Part shown: piece after piece, positions 40,245 through 60,690 of the stretch | Layout: every line of letters begins with the position of its first letter | Numbering within the stretch: the first letter of the stretch is position 1 | Source: Candidatus Saccharibacteria bacterium 49-20 | GTDB taxonomy: Bacteria > Patescibacteriota > Saccharimonadia > Saccharimonadales > Saccharimonadaceae | DNA: 64,000 nt | NCBI GenBank assembly: GCA_001897295.1 | Contig: MKSN01000001.1 | Span: 840,898 to 904,897 of the forward strand | Reading direction: 5' to 3' | Made by a program: the position numbers and the translations under genes | Notes under the pieces: generated by a model | The model's database searches: none | What the model was told of the DNA's origin: nothing | What the model saw: the letters and a program-made list of their open reading frames with translations, nothing else

Positions 40245-41261
40245 ATGGGTATATTTCTTGCAATCTTAGCTATTTTTATTTTTATATGTCTTGTGTTGGT
40301 GGCTTCAATGCACCCTGTGAGGCCGCAGTACAGTCTGGCGGAACTGAAGCGTCGCTCAAAGCGTTCCGATGCATATTTGTTGGAGCTCGACCGCTATGAG
40401 CTCCACGCAGCACTTGTGACGCTCCTTCGAAGCATTCGAGCGCTATTATTGGTGCTTTTGGTGGTATTTCTTATTGGTGCGTTCGGATGGTTTCTAGGAA
40501 TTGTACTGGCATTGATTCTTGCGGTTGTATATCCGGCGATTGCACGATTTAAAAGCGTCGCGAAGGGCGGCCAGACGCTTTATGCAAAAGTTGAGCCGAC
40601 CTTGCTTGACCTGGCGGCAAAGTTTGAGCGAATCTTCCAAAGCCTACGCGAACCGGGAGTATCGATTTATGAAGCACCTACGAGGTTGCATTCTCGTGAA
40701 GACCTCGCTGAACTTATCGAACGTTCAAAAGAGGTCGTGGGCGACAACGAACGCGCCCTACTTGTCGCTGCATTAGCATTTCCGGAAAAGACCGTTAATT
40801 CTGTCATGACCCCAAGGACGGTTATCGATTTTATTAAAAAAGGCGAGTTCCTCGGTCCGCTTGTCCTCGACGAGCTACATGCACTTGGCCATAGCCGGCT
40901 TCCTGTCATTGCTGAAGATATCGACCATGTAGTGGGCATCTTACACCTACGGGATTTGCTCTCGCTCGACGAACGGCATTCTTCGACAGCTGAAAAGGCG
41001 ATGGAGAAGAAGGTCTATTATATTCGTGAAGATGACACACTTGAGCACGCACTTTCTGCTTTTATCCGCACCCGTCACCACCTATTTATTGTGATTAACA
41101 AGAATCGTGAAACGGTGGGTCTTTTGACCTTGGAAGACGTCATGGAGTCGCTGATTGGGCGCAAGATTGTCGATGAAGATGATATTCACGCCGATCTTCG
41201 AGCGGTTGCCGAGCGAGAAGGCAAGACTAACAATGCTGCCGAGGGCCGCGTCGACCTCTAG
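40245..41261 (+). CDS. CBS-domain membrane protein (CorC/HlyC-related)
   Basis: 338 aa. Two N-terminal membrane segments (FLAILAIFIFICLVLVASM; LLLVLLVVFLIGAFGWFLGIVLALILAVVY), then a CBS pair preceded by the characteristic KTVNSVMTPRTVIDF and ending VGLLTLEDVMESLIG. The CorC_HlyC C-terminal domain and a full CNNM transporter domain are absent. Adenine-nucleotide sensing linked to Mg2+ or other ion handling is likely. Confidence 0.82.
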   Translation: MGIFLAILAIFIFICLVLVASMHPVRPQYSLAELKRRSKRSDAYLLELDRYELHAALVTLLRSIRALLLVLLVVFLIGAFGWFLGIVLALILAVVYPAIARFKSVAKGGQTLYAKVEPTLLDLAAKFERIFQSLREPGVSIYEAPTRLHSREDLAELIERSKEVVGDNERALLVAALAFPEKTVNSVMTPRTVIDFIKKGEFLGPLVLDELHALGHSRLPVIAEDIDHVVGILHLRDLLSLDERHSSTAEKAMEKKVYYIREDDTLEHALSAFIRTRHHLFIVINKNRETVGLLTLEDVMESLIGRKIVDEDDIHADLRAVAEREGKTNNAAEGRVDL

Positions 41262-41281: not shown

Positions 41282-41418
41282 TACAATATAGGCAATATGA
41301 TGCGACGAACGAATAACGACAGTAATATCCGGGTCAGCGGCGAGTAGGACGAACTCGTTCGCAGACGACCCACGCGAAGTCCGCATCTATCTACATACCC
41401 TAAACAAGGACTCCATTG
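41282..41418 (+). promoter_or_regulatory. aspS leader with candidate peptide-based attenuator
   Basis: TACAAT at 41282 is followed by a 16-codon leader ORF and about 70 nt of structured RNA. GGAC overlapping the leader stop (41347-41350) and GGACT overlapping the aspS Shine-Dalgarno (41408-41412) can each pair with AGTCC at 41378-41382; GGGTC/GACCC is a further stem. The alternatives could link leader translation to aspS initiation. There is no U-run, so control would be translational. Confidence 0.45.
41297..41347 (+). CDS. Leader peptide MMRRTNNDSNIRVSGE upstream of aspS
   Basis: Sixteen codons from an ATG nine bases after the -10 box to TAG. Codons 6-10 read Asn-Asn-Asp-Ser-Asn, the amino acids charged by a non-discriminating AspRS. 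Such codon runs are the hallmark of attenuator leaders where ribosome stalling senses tRNA charging. Confidence 0.5.
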   Translation: MMRRTNNDSNIRVSGE

Positions 41419-42738
41419 ATGAGTACAACTCGAACTCTGACTAACGAATTAAGCGCCCACATCGGCGAAACAATCACTATTGAAGGCTGGCTTCACAAGA
41501 AGCGCCTACTTGGTGGCCTCAACTTTATTACGCTTCGCGACCGCCGCGGCATTGCGCAGACAAAAATTGACAACAAAGACGAGCTCGAAAAGCTTCGTGG
41601 GCTTCAAATTGGCACCATTCTTTCACTTACGGGTACCGTTGCAGCGGATGAGCGCGCGCCAGGTGGTACTGAGTTGCACGACGTGACAGTTGAGGTGCTT
41701 GTACCAGTTACCGACGAGCCGCCAATTGAAATTGATAAGCCAATTTCACACAAATCTGAAAACCTCGATACGCTGTTTGACTACCGTGTATTGAACATTC
41801 GTAACCTTCAAGAACAGAAAATCTTCAAGATCCGCGCGAGCCTCACTCGCTACCTTCGTGAGTACCTCACGGACCAAGAATTTGTTGAAATTGATACTCC
41901 AAAGCTTCTCGCTGAGGCAACTGAAGGTGGCGCAGAAGTGTTCAAGCTCGATTATTTTGGCAAGACCGCAACGCTTGCTCAGAGCCCACAATTCTATAAG
42001 CAAATTATGGTGGGTGCATTTGAGCGCGTCTACGAAATTAACCATAGCTACCGCGCAGAGCCGAGTGCAACGACTCGCCACTTGACCGAGCTCACGATGC
42101 TCGACATTGAAATGGGCTTCGTGAAAGATCACGACGAAGTCCTCGATCTAGTAGGTGATATGACACAAACCGTGCTTCGCCGCGTGTATGACGAGCATGC
42201 TGATGACATCAAGACGCTCAACGCACCGACACTCGCACTTCCAGAAGACGGCAAGGTGCCTCGCTTCACGATCGCTGAAATTCACGAAATGTACACCAAG
42301 GCGACAAAGACCGACACTACTGCCGAGAAGGATCTTATTCCCGACGAAGAGCGCTGGATTGCTGACTATGCGCGCAAGAACCTGAACAGTGACCTCGTGT
42401 ATGCGGTTGATTTCCCAGCTGAAGCGGGTAAGTTCTACCACAAGTTTAAAGACGACGGTACTGTTGCGTGGGGTGACCTCCTTTTCCGCGGTCTCGAAAT
42501 TGCGACCGTACCACTTCGTGAAAACAACTATGAAAAGATGATCGAGCAAATGACCGCGAAGGGTCTCGATGTATCACACGAAGGCTTTAAGTATTACCTC
42601 CAAGCCTTTAAGTATGGGCTTCCACAGCATGGTGGATGCGGGTTTGGTGTTGATCGCCTTGTGCAAAAAACTTTGGGTCTTGGTAACGTCAAGGAAGCAA
42701 CCCTCTTCCCACGCGACATTAACCGACTCGCACCGTAA
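41419..42738 (+). CDS. aspS: Aspartyl-tRNA synthetase, non-discriminating archaeal type
   Basis: 439 aa from ATG 41419 (AAGGA eight bases upstream; the ORF-track TTG is one codon earlier). N-terminal OB-fold with WLHKKRLLGGLNFITLRDR, motif 2 YEINHSYRAEPSATTRHLTE and motif 3 GGCGFGVDRLVQ, followed by LFPRDINRLAP. No bacterial GAD insertion and short length, so it is the archaeal/ND type, which charges tRNA-Asp and tRNA-Asn with Asp; GatCAB would then amidate Asp-tRNA-Asn. Overlaps the next gene (TAATG). Confidence 0.92.
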   Translation: MSTTRTLTNELSAHIGETITIEGWLHKKRLLGGLNFITLRDRRGIAQTKIDNKDELEKLRGLQIGTILSLTGTVAADERAPGGTELHDVTVEVLVPVTDEPPIEIDKPISHKSENLDTLFDYRVLNIRNLQEQKIFKIRASLTRYLREYLTDQEFVEIDTPKLLAEATEGGAEVFKLDYFGKTATLAQSPQFYKQIMVGAFERVYEINHSYRAEPSATTRHLTELTMLDIEMGFVKDHDEVLDLVGDMTQTVLRRVYDEHADDIKTLNAPTLALPEDGKVPRFTIAEIHEMYTKATKTDTTAEKDLIPDEERWIADYARKNLNSDLVYAVDFPAEAGKFYHKFKDDGTVAWGDLLFRGLEIATVPLRENNYEKMIEQMTAKGLDVSHEGFKYYLQAFKYGLPQHGGCGFGVDRLVQKTLGLGNVKEATLFPRDINRLAP

Positions 42739-56966: not shown

Positions 56967-57042
56967 TGGTGGGGCTGGATGGAGTTGAACCATCTACCAA
57001 GTGGTTATGAGCCGCCTGCTCTGACCGATGAGCTACAGCCCC
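56967..57042 (-). tRNA. tRNA-Ile2 (CAU anticodon, probable lysidine)
   Basis: 76 nt with encoded CCA. Acceptor GGGGCTG/CAGCCCC, anticodon CAT at 57009-57007 in CTCATAA. The AGAGCAGGCG..CTCATAA..CTTGGT context matches bacterial tRNA-Ile2 rather than Met, so TilS would convert C34 to lysidine to read AUA. One C-A mismatch in the anticodon stem. Confidence 0.75.
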
Positions 57043-57122
57043 GCTTTCGATATTATACCTCAGGTGTATCTGTCGGGCTAGAGAGGTGAGTGGTATAATA
57101 CCACTAGCAAGCCATAAGCTTG

Positions 57123-57593
57123 ATGCCTATGCAAAAGATCAACATACGCAAATTCATCTACCATGTACGCCACAAGTACCTGACGTTTAATAACCTCGTA
57201 ATTATGACGGCGTTCTTAATTGCGCTTGGATGGGCGTGGGGGTCGCTTCAGGTGATGCAGCGAAATTATGGGCTTCAAAAAGAGGTAGACTACAAGCGCC
57301 GTCAGCTACAACTCGCAGAGCTTCAAAAAGATAGCCTTGAACTTCAGCAGCGATATTATCAGACTAATGAGTACAAAGAACTTGCCGCACGCGAATCACT
57401 CGGGCTCGTAATGCCAGGTGAAAAAGTACTAATCTTGCCAGAAAATTCAGAAGCTGCGAAGAAGTCTGATGCGAAGACGTCGGGTTCAAGCGCGCAGGTC
57501 GCTTCACAAGATAAAACGAGTAATATGGAACAGTGGTTGAACTTCCTATTCGGTGGGTATAGCCGAAGTATCGATACGAATAGTGAAGAATAA
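57123..57593 (+). CDS. FtsB/DivIC-like septum protein
   Basis: 156 aa from ATG 57123; TATAAT at 57094. One membrane helix (LVIMTAFLIALGWAWGSL), then a coiled coil (VDYKRRQLQLAELQKDSLEL) ending in ELAARESLGLVMPGEKVL, the FtsB/DivIC closing motif. A Ser/Lys-rich extension follows. Likely divisome scaffold. Confidence 0.8.
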   Translation: MPMQKINIRKFIYHVRHKYLTFNNLVIMTAFLIALGWAWGSLQVMQRNYGLQKEVDYKRRQLQLAELQKDSLELQQRYYQTNEYKELAARESLGLVMPGEKVLILPENSEAAKKSDAKTSGSSAQVASQDKTSNMEQWLNFLFGGYSRSIDTNSEE

Positions 57594-57642
57594 GAGACTC
57601 GCGCTAAGGGCGGCCCCCGTTAGCTTATTAGTAAAACAAAAA

Positions 57643-57667
57643 AGGCCCTGAATTTCTTCAGGATCTT
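57643..57667 (-). terminator. Terminator of tRNA-fMet
   Basis: CCTGAA-GAAA-TTCAGG hairpin on the minus strand followed by GCCTTTTTT. Confidence 0.7.
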
Positions 57668-57670
57668 TCT

Positions 57671-57748
57671 TGGTAGCGGGGGCAGGATTTGAACCTGCGA
57701 CCTTGTGGTTATGAGCCACACGAGCTAACCGGGCTGCTCCACCCCGCG
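57671..57748 (-). tRNA. Initiator tRNA-fMet (CAU)
   Basis: 78 nt with CCA. CGCGGGGTGGAGCAGC start, unpaired C1 x U72, and GGTTCAAATCC T-arm identify the initiator. The anticodon stem is TGTGG/CCACA: the usual three G-C pairs are reduced to two, with U-A at 29-41. Confidence 0.92.
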
Positions 57749-57800
57749 GTACAAAATCTATATTAACAGATACGAGTGGCTTTTTCAACCCCTTTAGAGC

Positions 57801-59180
57801 TTATGCTGAAAGTTTTTGTGCAGCGACGCGTATCGCCTCGCTCCAGGACAGGAAGGCATGCGGTGTGTCGGCAAGTTGTTGGGCGGTAAGCCCGTGTTTT
57901 ACGGCGAGGCCAATTTCATGAATCATGTCGGCGGCGTTTGGTGCGACAATGGTGCCACCGAGAATCACGCCTTTTTTGTCGGCAATAAGCTTCACGAAGC
58001 CATCGCGGAAATCGGCAGTATTGCTGCGAGCCACAATATTAAGCGGCGCAATTGATTTATTCACTGAAAGGTCGCGGCGACGACAGTCGTCTTCGGAAAG
58101 TCCTACATGGGCAACTTCAGGTGAGATAAAAATGACATTCGGTGTTGCCGTGTAATCGGGCACTGCCTTTACGCGTGCGAACATATTATGCGCAGCGATG
58201 CGGCTTTCAAGTAGGGCCGTATGAGTGTGGCTATCGCGACCAAGCACATCACCAGTAGCGTAAATGTGCTTCACACTTGTCTGTAGGTGTTCGTTTACTT
58301 CGATACCCTTAGGGGTGTATTTTACTGAAGCATTCTCGAGGCCAAGGTCGACATTAGGAAGGCGACCAGCTGCAACGAGGATTTCGTCAGCCTTAATGTG
58401 TTTTTCGACTCCACCGCGGTTGATCAGGATACGCTTACCAAGGCCTTCCTTTTCAACTGAAAGAACTCGAGTGTGCGTAAGAATGGTTGCGCCTTTTTGC
58501 TCGGTAAGAATACGTTCAATAAGCTCACCAGCTTCTTTGTCTTCATGTGGAAGGAGGCGACTCGCTTGCTCGGCAATATATATTTTAGTACCAAATGTGG
58601 CCATAAGTTGGGCAATCTCGATGCCGTACTGACCACCGCCAATAATAAACAGGCTTTTTGGCGGGCGAAGCGTTTCTAGGATAGTGCGCGGTGTGAAGTA
58701 TTCAATTTCTCCAAGACCTTGAACCTTCGGTGCAATCCATGAAGACCCAGTCGCGATCAAAAAGTGCGCCGCAGAAAGGTGGCGTCGGTTGACGGTAATT
58801 TCATGAGGGGTTAAGAAGTGAGCCTTGCCACTGTAGGCGCTAATTCCATGGTTTTCATAGAAACGGCGGTTGTTGGCTGCGCCGGTTCGCTCAACAACGA
58901 GGTTTTTCCAGTTGCGAATAGAAGGGTAGTTGTAGCCAAGGGTTGAGGTGCGCAGACCGAAGCGATTACCGTGTCGAGCTTCGTCGTAGATACGGGCCGC
59001 ATGAAGCAGTGCTTTTGTTGGAATGTCACTCCAGTTTGGTGAATCGCCACCAAAAGTATCTTCTTCAATAATTGCGACGCGCTTTCCTTCGCGCGCTGCA
59101 ATAGTTGCCGCCGCACTACCGCCGGCGCCGCTCCCGATTACAATCAGGTCATAGTCGAATGAATGTTTCGCTTTAGCCAC
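57801..59180 (-). CDS. FAD/NAD(P) pyridine nucleotide oxidoreductase lacking the redox disulfide
   Basis: 459 aa. FAD motif VIGSGAGGSAAATIA, NAD(P) motif FIIGGGQYGIEIAQ, IYATGDVLG and the C-terminal dimer segment with TPHAFLSWSEA match the lipoamide dehydrogenase/mercuric reductase family. The CxxxxC site reads GGDSPNWSDIPTK, so both cysteines are gone; the region resembles soluble transhydrogenase SthA (..THWGTIPSK), which also lacks the disulfide pair. Transhydrogenase or NAD(P)H oxidase activity is likely. Confidence 0.87.
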   Translation of the reverse strand: MAKAKHSFDYDLIVIGSGAGGSAAATIAAREGKRVAIIEEDTFGGDSPNWSDIPTKALLHAARIYDEARHGNRFGLRTSTLGYNYPSIRNWKNLVVERTGAANNRRFYENHGISAYSGKAHFLTPHEITVNRRHLSAAHFLIATGSSWIAPKVQGLGEIEYFTPRTILETLRPPKSLFIIGGGQYGIEIAQLMATFGTKIYIAEQASRLLPHEDKEAGELIERILTEQKGATILTHTRVLSVEKEGLGKRILINRGGVEKHIKADEILVAAGRLPNVDLGLENASVKYTPKGIEVNEHLQTSVKHIYATGDVLGRDSHTHTALLESRIAAHNMFARVKAVPDYTATPNVIFISPEVAHVGLSEDDCRRRDLSVNKSIAPLNIVARSNTADFRDGFVKLIADKKGVILGGTIVAPNAADMIHEIGLAVKHGLTAQQLADTPHAFLSWSEAIRVAAQKLSA

Positions 59181-59189
59181 GTGTGCTCC

Positions 59190-59483
59190 TTATAATGTTG
59201 ATCGATGATGTTCGTAGAGGAAGCTTGCGTCGGGGTGGTACGTACGCAATCCTTGAGATGCCACTCGGCGAATATCGTTACTAGTTACTTCAGGACGGCT
59301 TTCAACCCAAGCCTCAACTTCACCAACCACACGGCGTGCCATACTTTCGGCGTGGCCTGCGGGTGCACCGGATGAAAGGCAGGCAGCGACAATGCTTTTA
59401 TGGAGCTTTTCGCGGTCGAAAGGTTCCGGGTGACGGTGGTGACTATTTTTCACCACGTGTGTAATTGGCCCACCCATATTCAT
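59190..59483 (-). CDS. Stand-alone ATP-cone domain protein
   Basis: 97 aa. VVKNSHHRHPEPFDREKLHK-SIVAAC, VTSNDIRRVASQGL and YHPDASFLYEHHRS follow the ATP-cone pattern that senses ATP/dATP in NrdA and NrdR. No NrdR zinc ribbon and no reductase domain. TAATG coupling to the membrane-protein gene. Might be a regulator of ribonucleotide reduction or of the neighbouring flavoprotein. Confidence 0.78.
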   Translation of the reverse strand: MNMGGPITHVVKNSHHRHPEPFDREKLHKSIVAACLSSGAPAGHAESMARRVVGEVEAWVESRPEVTSNDIRRVASQGLRTYHPDASFLYEHHRSTL

Positions 59484-60199
59484 TATTGAACCCCTAAGAC
59501 TGTCGCCATAATTTTACTGACATAGACGAAAAAGCCAAGGACGATAAGTGCGCCACCAGAACTGAACTGCAAGAAACGCTTGTTGTCGGTACGCCATTTT
59601 TGAATGCGCGCAAGTGAGCGACCACTTCCGATGAGCGACCATACAATGAGAAGGCCAAGCAGCGACACGGCGGTGTAGATGGCAATGCCCACAAGCTGCC
59701 ATTCTGGTGGAAGCCCAATCAGGACGAGGGCGGCAATGGCGACGGTAGGGATGATAAAGATCAGTTCAGAAATCACGCTCGTGAGGCCAAGGCTAAAGGC
59801 TTCGGCGCCTTGTTGAGTCTTCTTGCTACGTTCGGTAAGAAATTTTGCAAAGGCGCGGGGAATCCAAAGTTCGGTTCCTTTGGCGTTGCGGCGGTAATAG
59901 AAAAGCCAAACGGCAATACCAATCCCAAACACCAGGCCGCATACCAGCGCCCATACCAGTAGGGGTACTTCGGTCCCAAACCAGTGAATAAAGGCGAGTG
60001 AAACAAAAGAGAGGAGTAGGAGCGTCATGACGCCGGCGCCGGTAGTATAGCTTGTGGTCAGGCGGACAAGGCGCGCGTGGGACTTTTTTGACCCAATAGC
60101 GTGACCACTGAGCAGTGTAAGGACACTGACGCTGAGTTGAAAGCTAGCGTGGATAAGTGCGGCAAAGCCGACAATCGCGAGCGAAGTGATTATGTCCAT
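59483..60199 (-). CDS. Six-helix membrane protein of unknown function
   Basis: 238 aa. About six membrane helices, with a basic SKKSHARLVRLTT loop after the first. LGLTSVISELIFIIPTVAIA is reminiscent of LysE/cation-exporter folds, but no firm family. Coupled to the ATP-cone gene. Confidence 0.7.
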   Translation of the reverse strand: MDIITSLAIVGFAALIHASFQLSVSVLTLLSGHAIGSKKSHARLVRLTTSYTTGAGVMTLLLLSFVSLAFIHWFGTEVPLLVWALVCGLVFGIGIAVWLFYYRRNAKGTELWIPRAFAKFLTERSKKTQQGAEAFSLGLTSVISELIFIIPTVAIAALVLIGLPPEWQLVGIAIYTAVSLLGLLIVWSLIGSGRSLARIQKWRTDNKRFLQFSSGGALIVLGFFVYVSKIMATVLGVQ

Positions 60200-60293
60200 A
60201 TATTTCTATTTTTTAGAGATCCTCTACAGTATGTTATACCATAAGCGTAACAGGGACGTCAAAAGGGTTATAGCTTTTTCTGACGCGCGGGTA

Positions 60294-60322
60294 TTGACAT
60301 TTCATTAAGCTTATGCTAGAGT
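60294..60322 (+). promoter_or_regulatory. Promoter of the 44-codon mini-gene
   Basis: TTGACA, 17-bp spacer and TAGAGT with a TGC extension; 43 bp before the ATG. Confidence 0.65.
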
Positions 60323-60365
60323 AAGTACATAAAGCAACAAAAACAAAAAAAGGCAACCCACTACA

Positions 60366-60500
60366 ATGGAAACCACCCAATCAACAATCGAACCTGTCAC
60401 AATTAGCGAAGTATTGCAGCTTGCAAGCTGGAATCGTCCACGAACCAACGAAGAATTACGTGATTTTGTATCACGCCGCGCATCGATGACCGGCCTTTAA
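60366..60500 (+). CDS. 44-codon mini-gene with its own promoter and terminator
   Basis: 44 residues: METTQSTIEPVTISEVLQLA, then SWNRPRTNEELRDFVSRRAS and MTGL. Helical and amphipathic. Too short for the ORF track, but flanked by a consensus promoter and a strong terminator, so probably expressed. Function unknown. Confidence 0.6.
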   Translation: METTQSTIEPVTISEVLQLASWNRPRTNEELRDFVSRRASMTGL

Positions 60501-60537
60501 GAATATATGTCTCTGTAAGCCCATAAGAGGGAAGTCC

Positions 60538-60572
60538 AGATAGGGGAGAATGCCACTCCCCTATTTATTTTT
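60538..60572 (+). terminator. Terminator of the 44-codon gene
   Basis: AGGGGAG/CTCCCCT stem, seven-base loop, then ATTTATTTTT. Confidence 0.85.
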
Positions 60573-60576
60573 AGCC

Positions 60577-60615
60577 AAGAAAAAACCCCCACGGTCTTGT
60601 GAGGGGTTTTTCTTG
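60577..60615. terminator. Bidirectional terminator before tRNA-Met 3' end
   Basis: AAGAAAAAACCCCCAC / GTGAGGGGTTTTTCTT long stem; terminates the minus-strand tRNA-Met. Confidence 0.8.
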
Positions 60616-60690
60616 GTAGCAGCGACTGGGATTGAACCAGTGACCTCGAGCTTATGAGTCTCGCGCTCTAACCAACTGAGCTACGCTGCC
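60614..60690 (-). tRNA. Elongator tRNA-Met (CAU)
   Basis: 77 nt with CCA; acceptor GGCAGCG/CGCTGCT, anticodon loop CTCATAA. The GTAGCTCAGTTGGTTAGAGC D-arm and GTCAC variable/T-arm context are those of elongator tRNA-Met. Confidence 0.85.

Follow-up and report, generated by a model that had tools for sequence, protein, structure and literature searches.

A conserved uORF with asparagine and aspartate codons, overlapping a predicted pseudoknotted RNA fold, as a candidate codon-reading leader of aspS in Saccharibacteria

We characterized the region upstream of aspS, the gene for aspartyl-tRNA synthetase (AspRS), in a 64,000-nucleotide stretch of contig MKSN01000001.1 from Candidatus Saccharibacteria bacterium 49-20. 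The whole stretch is referred to as the window, and all coordinates are positions within it. The host genome is of Saccharibacteria type (0.9 Mb), the relatives of the window's aspS belong to Candidatus Saccharibacteria, and the aspS product was identified as an Asp-tRNA(Asn) ligase (PRK05159). Between a -10-like box and the aspS start codon lies a short upstream open reading frame (uORF) with a cluster of Asn and Asp codons, overlapped by three predicted stems (P1, P2 and P3) and a predicted pseudoknot. An earlier description made from the letters alone, here called the sequence-only reading, had listed the TACAAT box, the uORF, GGAC at its stop codon, GTCC, the Shine-Dalgarno (SD) sequence and the aspS ATG, and all of these were found as described. 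The features of the locus are given below; codon statistics were taken from 63 distinct leaders, with codons numbered backwards from stem P2.

41282-41287, plus strand: TACAAT, a -10-like box, seen in the sequence.
41297-41347, plus strand: leader uORF of 16 codons, ATG at 41297, encoding MMRRTNNDSNIRVSGE and then stop; its frame and its (Asn/Asp)-x-Asn codons are conserved in the 63 distinct leaders.
41299-41303, plus strand: GATGC, 5' strand of the predicted base stem P1 (permutation test, 0/2000).
41312-41326, plus strand: proposed sensing codons Asn-Asn-Asp-Ser-Asn (AAT AAC GAC AGT AAT), from the statistics of codons -4, -2 and -6/-5.
41331-41335, plus strand: GGGTC, 5' strand of P2 (covariation).
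41337-41344, plus strand: GCGGCGAG, 5' strand of P3, immediately ahead of the stop codon (covariation of four model base pairs; full arm by single-sequence folding).
41347-41350, plus strand: GGAC, the P3 loop and 5' strand of the pseudoknot, sharing the final base of the stop codon of the uORF (permutation test, 0/2000; compensatory variants).
41354-41362, plus strand: CTCGTTCGC, 3' strand of P3, with one bulge (covariation; single-sequence folding).
41367-41371, plus strand: GACCC, 3' strand of P2 (covariation).
41379-41382, plus strand: GTCC (consensus AGCC), 3' strand of the pseudoknot and partner of the P3 loop (permutation test).
41383-41387, plus strand: GCATC, 3' strand of P1, adjoining the pseudoknot strand (permutation test).
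41406-41410, plus strand: AAGGA, the aspS SD sequence, within AAGGACT at 41406-41412 (SD-like sequence at 52/63 loci).
41419-42738, plus strand: aspS, Asp-tRNA(Asn) ligase of the archaeal type, 439 aa, ATG at 41419 (NF003483, 440.8 bits, cut-off 353).

It was noted that a -10 box lies 6-10 nt 5' of the uORF ATG in 54/63 leaders, and that an SD-like sequence precedes the uORF in 1/63 leaders and aspS in 52/63. The uORF would be of the leaderless type, with the transcript predicted to start at its ATG or a few bases before it, a point missing from the sequence-only reading. Leaderless-type starts are common in the window (18/52 open reading frames vs 21/341 internal ATGs). At aspS loci that do not carry the element, a -10 box was found 5-11 nt before the aspS ATG in 54/79, so that aspS itself is of the leaderless type there. 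Where the element is present, the distance from the uORF stop to the aspS ATG has a median of 70 nt (44-92), and the aspS SD lies a median of 20 nt downstream of the 3' pseudoknot strand.

To describe the distribution of the leader, a covariance model was built from the aspS leaders of 16 relatives and used to search 393 genomes from the same order. Matches were obtained in 60 genomes, 57 of them real, and all 57 true matches lie directly upstream of aspS, one per genome; the low-scoring matches L197, L199, L200 and L201 were rejected as false. Samples of the class and phylum gave no match outside this order, and one further match of the wider search (L204) has the same sequence as L115. Because every true match stands at aspS and all wider-sample matches fall in this order, the element is, judged from the model matches, a single-gene leader. 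It occurs in roughly 15% of the order and, within the sampling done, nowhere else; in the genus to which the window belongs, several members are without it. The leader precedes two unrelated types of AspRS, an archaeal type of about 438 aa (31 cases) and a bacterial type of about 590 aa (30 cases; L141-L198), which suggests either replacement of the synthetase with the leader retained or transfer of the leader. At one locus (L179) the aspS frame looks broken near its start, the first long open reading frame beginning 241 nt downstream, through an assembly error or a frameshift.

We found that the uORF is open in all 63 leaders, always in one same frame relative to P2. From the ATG to codon -2 this frame (frame 0) holds no stop in 612 codons, compared to 56/549 and 85/549 in the other two frames, and Asn/Asp codons make up 188/675 codons in frame vs 19/612 and 33/612 out of frame. 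Codon -4 is Asn in 38 leaders, Asp in 24 and Ser in one (62/63 Asn or Asp), with AAT, GAT, AAC and GAC all in use; codon -2 is Asn in 60, Asp in two and Ser in one (again 62/63). Additional Asn/Asp codons were observed at -6/-5, positions at which the RNA shows no other conservation (39 vs 10.5 in shuffles; 0/2000). The uORF extends 10-17 codons before P2 and varies by whole codons only, with at least 14 and 10 length changes, and at least six and six Asn/Asp swaps at codon -4, on the AspRS trees of the two enzyme types. In three leaders (L162, L165 and L171) TAA follows the last Asn codon before P2 is reached (MIYRFGSNNCN, MIQQTGTNNCN and MTYTGRVNNSN), which argues that the Arg-Val-Gly codons found elsewhere at this place serve as RNA, in P2, and that the peptide they encode is unneeded. 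The occurrence of an Asn/Asp uORF upstream of aspS is far beyond chance. On these comparative data we hold with high confidence that the leader and its proposed sensing codons are real, and the element is very probably a codon-reading leader. The Asn/Asp-rich leader peptide of the sequence-only reading is therefore not peculiar to the window, being conserved in 57/393 genomes. We also considered whether ribosomes shift frame at the Asn codons in a programmed way and continue into aspS, and rejected this, since an alternative frame that is open and in phase with aspS occurs in only 2/63 leaders.

The predicted RNA structure was assessed in the same way. The single-sequence folding energy of the window leader is no better than that of shuffles (z = 0.18), so the case for a fold rests on comparison. 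In P2 and P3, 95% of cells are paired, compared to 31-46% when the strands are slid, with 79 double changes vs 14.8 in shuffles; these two predicted stems are strongly supported by covariation. The P3 loop is complementary to a downstream AGCC-type strand to a degree that no permutation reached (0/2000), and the pair takes the form GGAC/GTCC in the window and GGGC/GCCC, GGC/GCC, TGAC/GTCA, CTCA/TGAG, GAGC/GCTC and others among relatives. P1 links uORF codons with the bases right after the pseudoknot strand in up to 8 bp (0/2000 permutations). All three stems and the pseudoknot are conserved and overlap the uORF. The sequence-only reading had proposed looking in relatives for Asn/Asp codons that are conserved and for pairings that covary, and this comparison bore out both. 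Rfam gave no match for the window (E up to 5) and none for eight relatives at the gathering threshold, T-box models included, and a known RNA family was excluded for the leader on this ground.

A leader that carries two kinds of codon agrees with the gene content of these genomes. A search of 393 genomes from the order gave no AsnRS over the family cut-off; of the leader genomes, 57/57 contain gatB. In the indirect pathway, Asp-tRNA(Asp) and Asn-tRNA(Asn) both depend on AspRS. From this gene content, AspRS would be the source of both charged tRNAs here, and Asn and Asp codons would both report its output.

With respect to the output step, the stretch from P2 to aspS held no U-tract of five or more in any of 63 leaders, by which an intrinsic terminator in the leader was ruled out, and no Rho over the cut-off was found in the 36 leader-bearing genomes tested, the window's genome included; the weak Rho matches look like ATPase paralogues. 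With neither a U-tract nor Rho found, control at the level of translation is likeliest. A CTAAC-like motif was frequent ahead of the aspS SD (window 41388-41410 and the equivalent positions of relatives), for example ACTAACCAGGA, and no conserved pairing partner was found for it.

We consider it fairly likely that this leader acts in cis, matching the synthesis of AspRS to how much Asn-tRNA(Asn) and Asp-tRNA(Asp) is available, and that ribosome stalling opens an inhibitory fold in it. In this very small parasitic bacterium, as in the many distant relatives that carry it, the element probably senses when Asn and Asp tRNAs run short and raises enzyme production. In this mechanism the mRNA would start at or beside the AUG of the leaderless uORF, whose Asn/Asp codons are clustered at -6 to -2 ahead of P2. 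With plentiful charged tRNA for both amino acids, the ribosome would reach the stop codon inside P3 and depart, and the RNA would close through the base stem P1, the P2-P3 hairpin and the pseudoknot in which the P3 loop pairs with the AGCC strand. The end of this closed fold is about 10-20 nt from the aspS SD, on its 5' side, and the fold would make it harder for the initiating ribosome to load. At low charging the ribosome would pause at the Asn/Asp codons and cover the 5' strand of P1, extending onto the 5' strand of P2 when paused at codon -2; by keeping P1 and P2 open, it would allow more aspS translation. Comparison among the genomes supports the predicted parts, namely the leader, its codons and frame, P1, P2, P3, the pseudoknot and the gene context, together with the lack of AsnRS, U-tract and Rho in the genomes tested. 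That the ribosome stalls, that the fold is inhibitory and that control runs in this direction are what we infer from this arrangement.

Several observations weigh against this mechanism. The search model itself favours conserved codons, an ascertainment effect, and the linking strand (RAY-ANN-AAT) is near-invariant at some bases, codon -3 beginning with A in 54/63 leaders and AAT standing at -2 in 59/63, so that part of the codon conservation may be at the RNA level. The permutation tests for P1 and the pseudoknot were uncorrected for relatedness, although the helices differ between families. Finally, the aspS SD lies in no conserved helix, and its modelled accessibility is unchanged at about 0.49-0.51 whether the leader is free, occupied by a ribosome stalled at codon -4 or -2, or occupied by a terminating ribosome; how the fold would act on aspS is for these reasons a guess.

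The switch of the sequence-only reading has two sequences, GGAC at the stop of the leader and GGACT of the SD, competing for one AGTCC; the ribosome site would be freed when the ribosome stalls and sequestered once the leader is completed. The complementarity is present in the window, and its GGAC/GTCC half is real, covarying, and conserved as the pseudoknot. The SD half, however, is missing from L144 and L032, the closest relatives with the leader, SD complementarity is no better than permuted (631/2000 for the motif, 1282/2000 for the P3 loop, 1697/2000 for the P2 3' tail and 603/2000 for the uORF), and stalling leaves the SD as accessible as before; such a switch is highly improbable. Of the translational attenuation proposed there, the level of control is retained and the sequestration of the SD is unsupported. 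The main rival leaves the SD alone, and the position of the SD outside the conserved helices makes it attractive: a ribosome stalled near the 5' end, about 15-30 nt from the inferred end of the mRNA, would block 5'-end-dependent decay, so that aspS mRNA would be longer-lived at low charging and the fold would be a decay or processing signal. We consider this mRNA protection unlikely, the fixed register of the Asn/Asp codons from P2 being left unexplained by it.

Also unlikely, if anything slightly more so, is a metabolite riboswitch or AspRS-binding site in which the linking strand and P3 loop form a pocket and the uORF is incidental. The compact pseudoknotted fold, its base stem and the near-invariant unpaired A residues would suit such a site, but an incidental reading frame would not account for 0/612 stops in frame 0 against 10-15% in the other frames, for length changes that are all in frame, or for the extra Asn/Asp codons at -6/-5 outside the conserved RNA positions, and the leader matches no Rfam family or known class. 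Reinitiation or coupling, in which ribosomes finishing the uORF proceed to aspS and the codons tune their delivery, has some basis in that leaderless uORFs can supply ribosomes to downstream genes (discussed in PMC4633059). Such coupling predicts less aspS expression at low charging, and the median distance of 70 nt (44-92) between uORF stop and aspS ATG and the SD-like sequence of aspS itself in 52/63 leave it with a very small probability. Least probable is that the leader, like classical amino-acid leaders, attenuates transcription by an intrinsic or a Rho-dependent route; 0/63 U-tracts and 0/36 genomes with Rho over the cut-off leave little room for this, despite a leader peptide with cognate codons and a C-rich, G-poor stretch before aspS (C 0.28, G 0.11). 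Returning to the stalling mechanism, we tentatively raise the possibility, at somewhat below even chances, that the element represents a novel kind of RNA switch for two amino acids: a leaderless Asn/Asp uORF in the single-stranded joining strand of a pseudoknot, whose same bases would serve as codons and as fold, occurring in AspRS/GatCAB lineages, operating with no terminator, Rho or SD sequestration, and kept before aspS through synthetase replacement.

We then compared the aspS leader to known systems. As expected of leader-peptide control elements, it has a uORF, predicted to be translated from its stop-free frame 0, and cognate codons. A classical leader-peptide attenuator of a synthetase gene is that of pheST in E. 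coli. Those of trpS and leuS in Streptomyces are further examples (PMC1262725). The aspS leader resembles these in placing a synthetase gene under a leader peptide with codons for its own amino acid; it differs from them in having no terminator or antiterminator hairpins with U-tracts and in reading two amino acids, since one enzyme supplies both. Neither the terminator hairpin with U-tract nor the Rho of a classical transcription attenuator was found for it, nor was the SD-sequestering alternative helix of erm-type translational attenuators. Like the T-box, it would sense tRNA charging upstream of a synthetase gene, but the T-box binds tRNA directly and the leader has no T-box match in Rfam.

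The nearest described element, likened here by description only, appears to be the LEU element upstream of leuA in Actinobacteria, which has a uORF rich in the relevant codons, a base stem, a conserved pseudoknot and no reported terminator, and in which codon mutations were reportedly without effect on regulation (PMC1262725). The conserved pseudoknot and base stem recur in the aspS leader, whereas the Leu codons, the SD-pairing base stem and the leuA context are missing from it, its codons being Asn/Asp and pairing of its SD being unsupported. Mycobacteria, in which leaderless transcripts abound, have Cys-rich uORFs ahead of cysteine genes that are similar in principle: cognate codons are clustered in them and an intrinsic terminator is missing. 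These uORFs were reported in work on leaderless transcription (PMC4633059), and Rho-dependent termination has been proposed for them (PMC4633059, PMC1262725). They differ in their cysteine genes and in having no reported conserved fold, and no Rho was found in the aspS-leader genomes tested.

An aspS leader in Shewanella is among the predictions of a computational study, where its only label is tRNA synthetase leader (PMC2659441). No aspS leader of the present type, and none in Saccharibacteria, was found in the open-access literature searched. Within that literature, the sequence-only reading seems right that such control is undescribed for aspS in the candidate phyla radiation, and neither aspS nor that radiation seems to have had a leader-peptide control element described before this one. 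In the indirect Asn-tRNA route one enzyme serves two tRNAs, and a leader reading Asn and Asp codons interchangeably would be a physiological effect that follows directly from that route. It would also mean that codon-reading regulation persists in reduced epibiont genomes where Rho was not found, and that it works from leaderless transcripts. The covariance model can be used as a search tool for the element.

Regarding other genes in the window, ARAGORN reported only three tRNA-Met genes, none near the leader, so that a tRNA-like gene in the leader was discounted; the three lie within 4 kb of one another on the minus strand (56967-60690). Directly 5' of aspS is a gene for a CBS-domain protein resembling CorC/GldE (40245-41261), and many relatives have a related protein encoded ahead of aspS.
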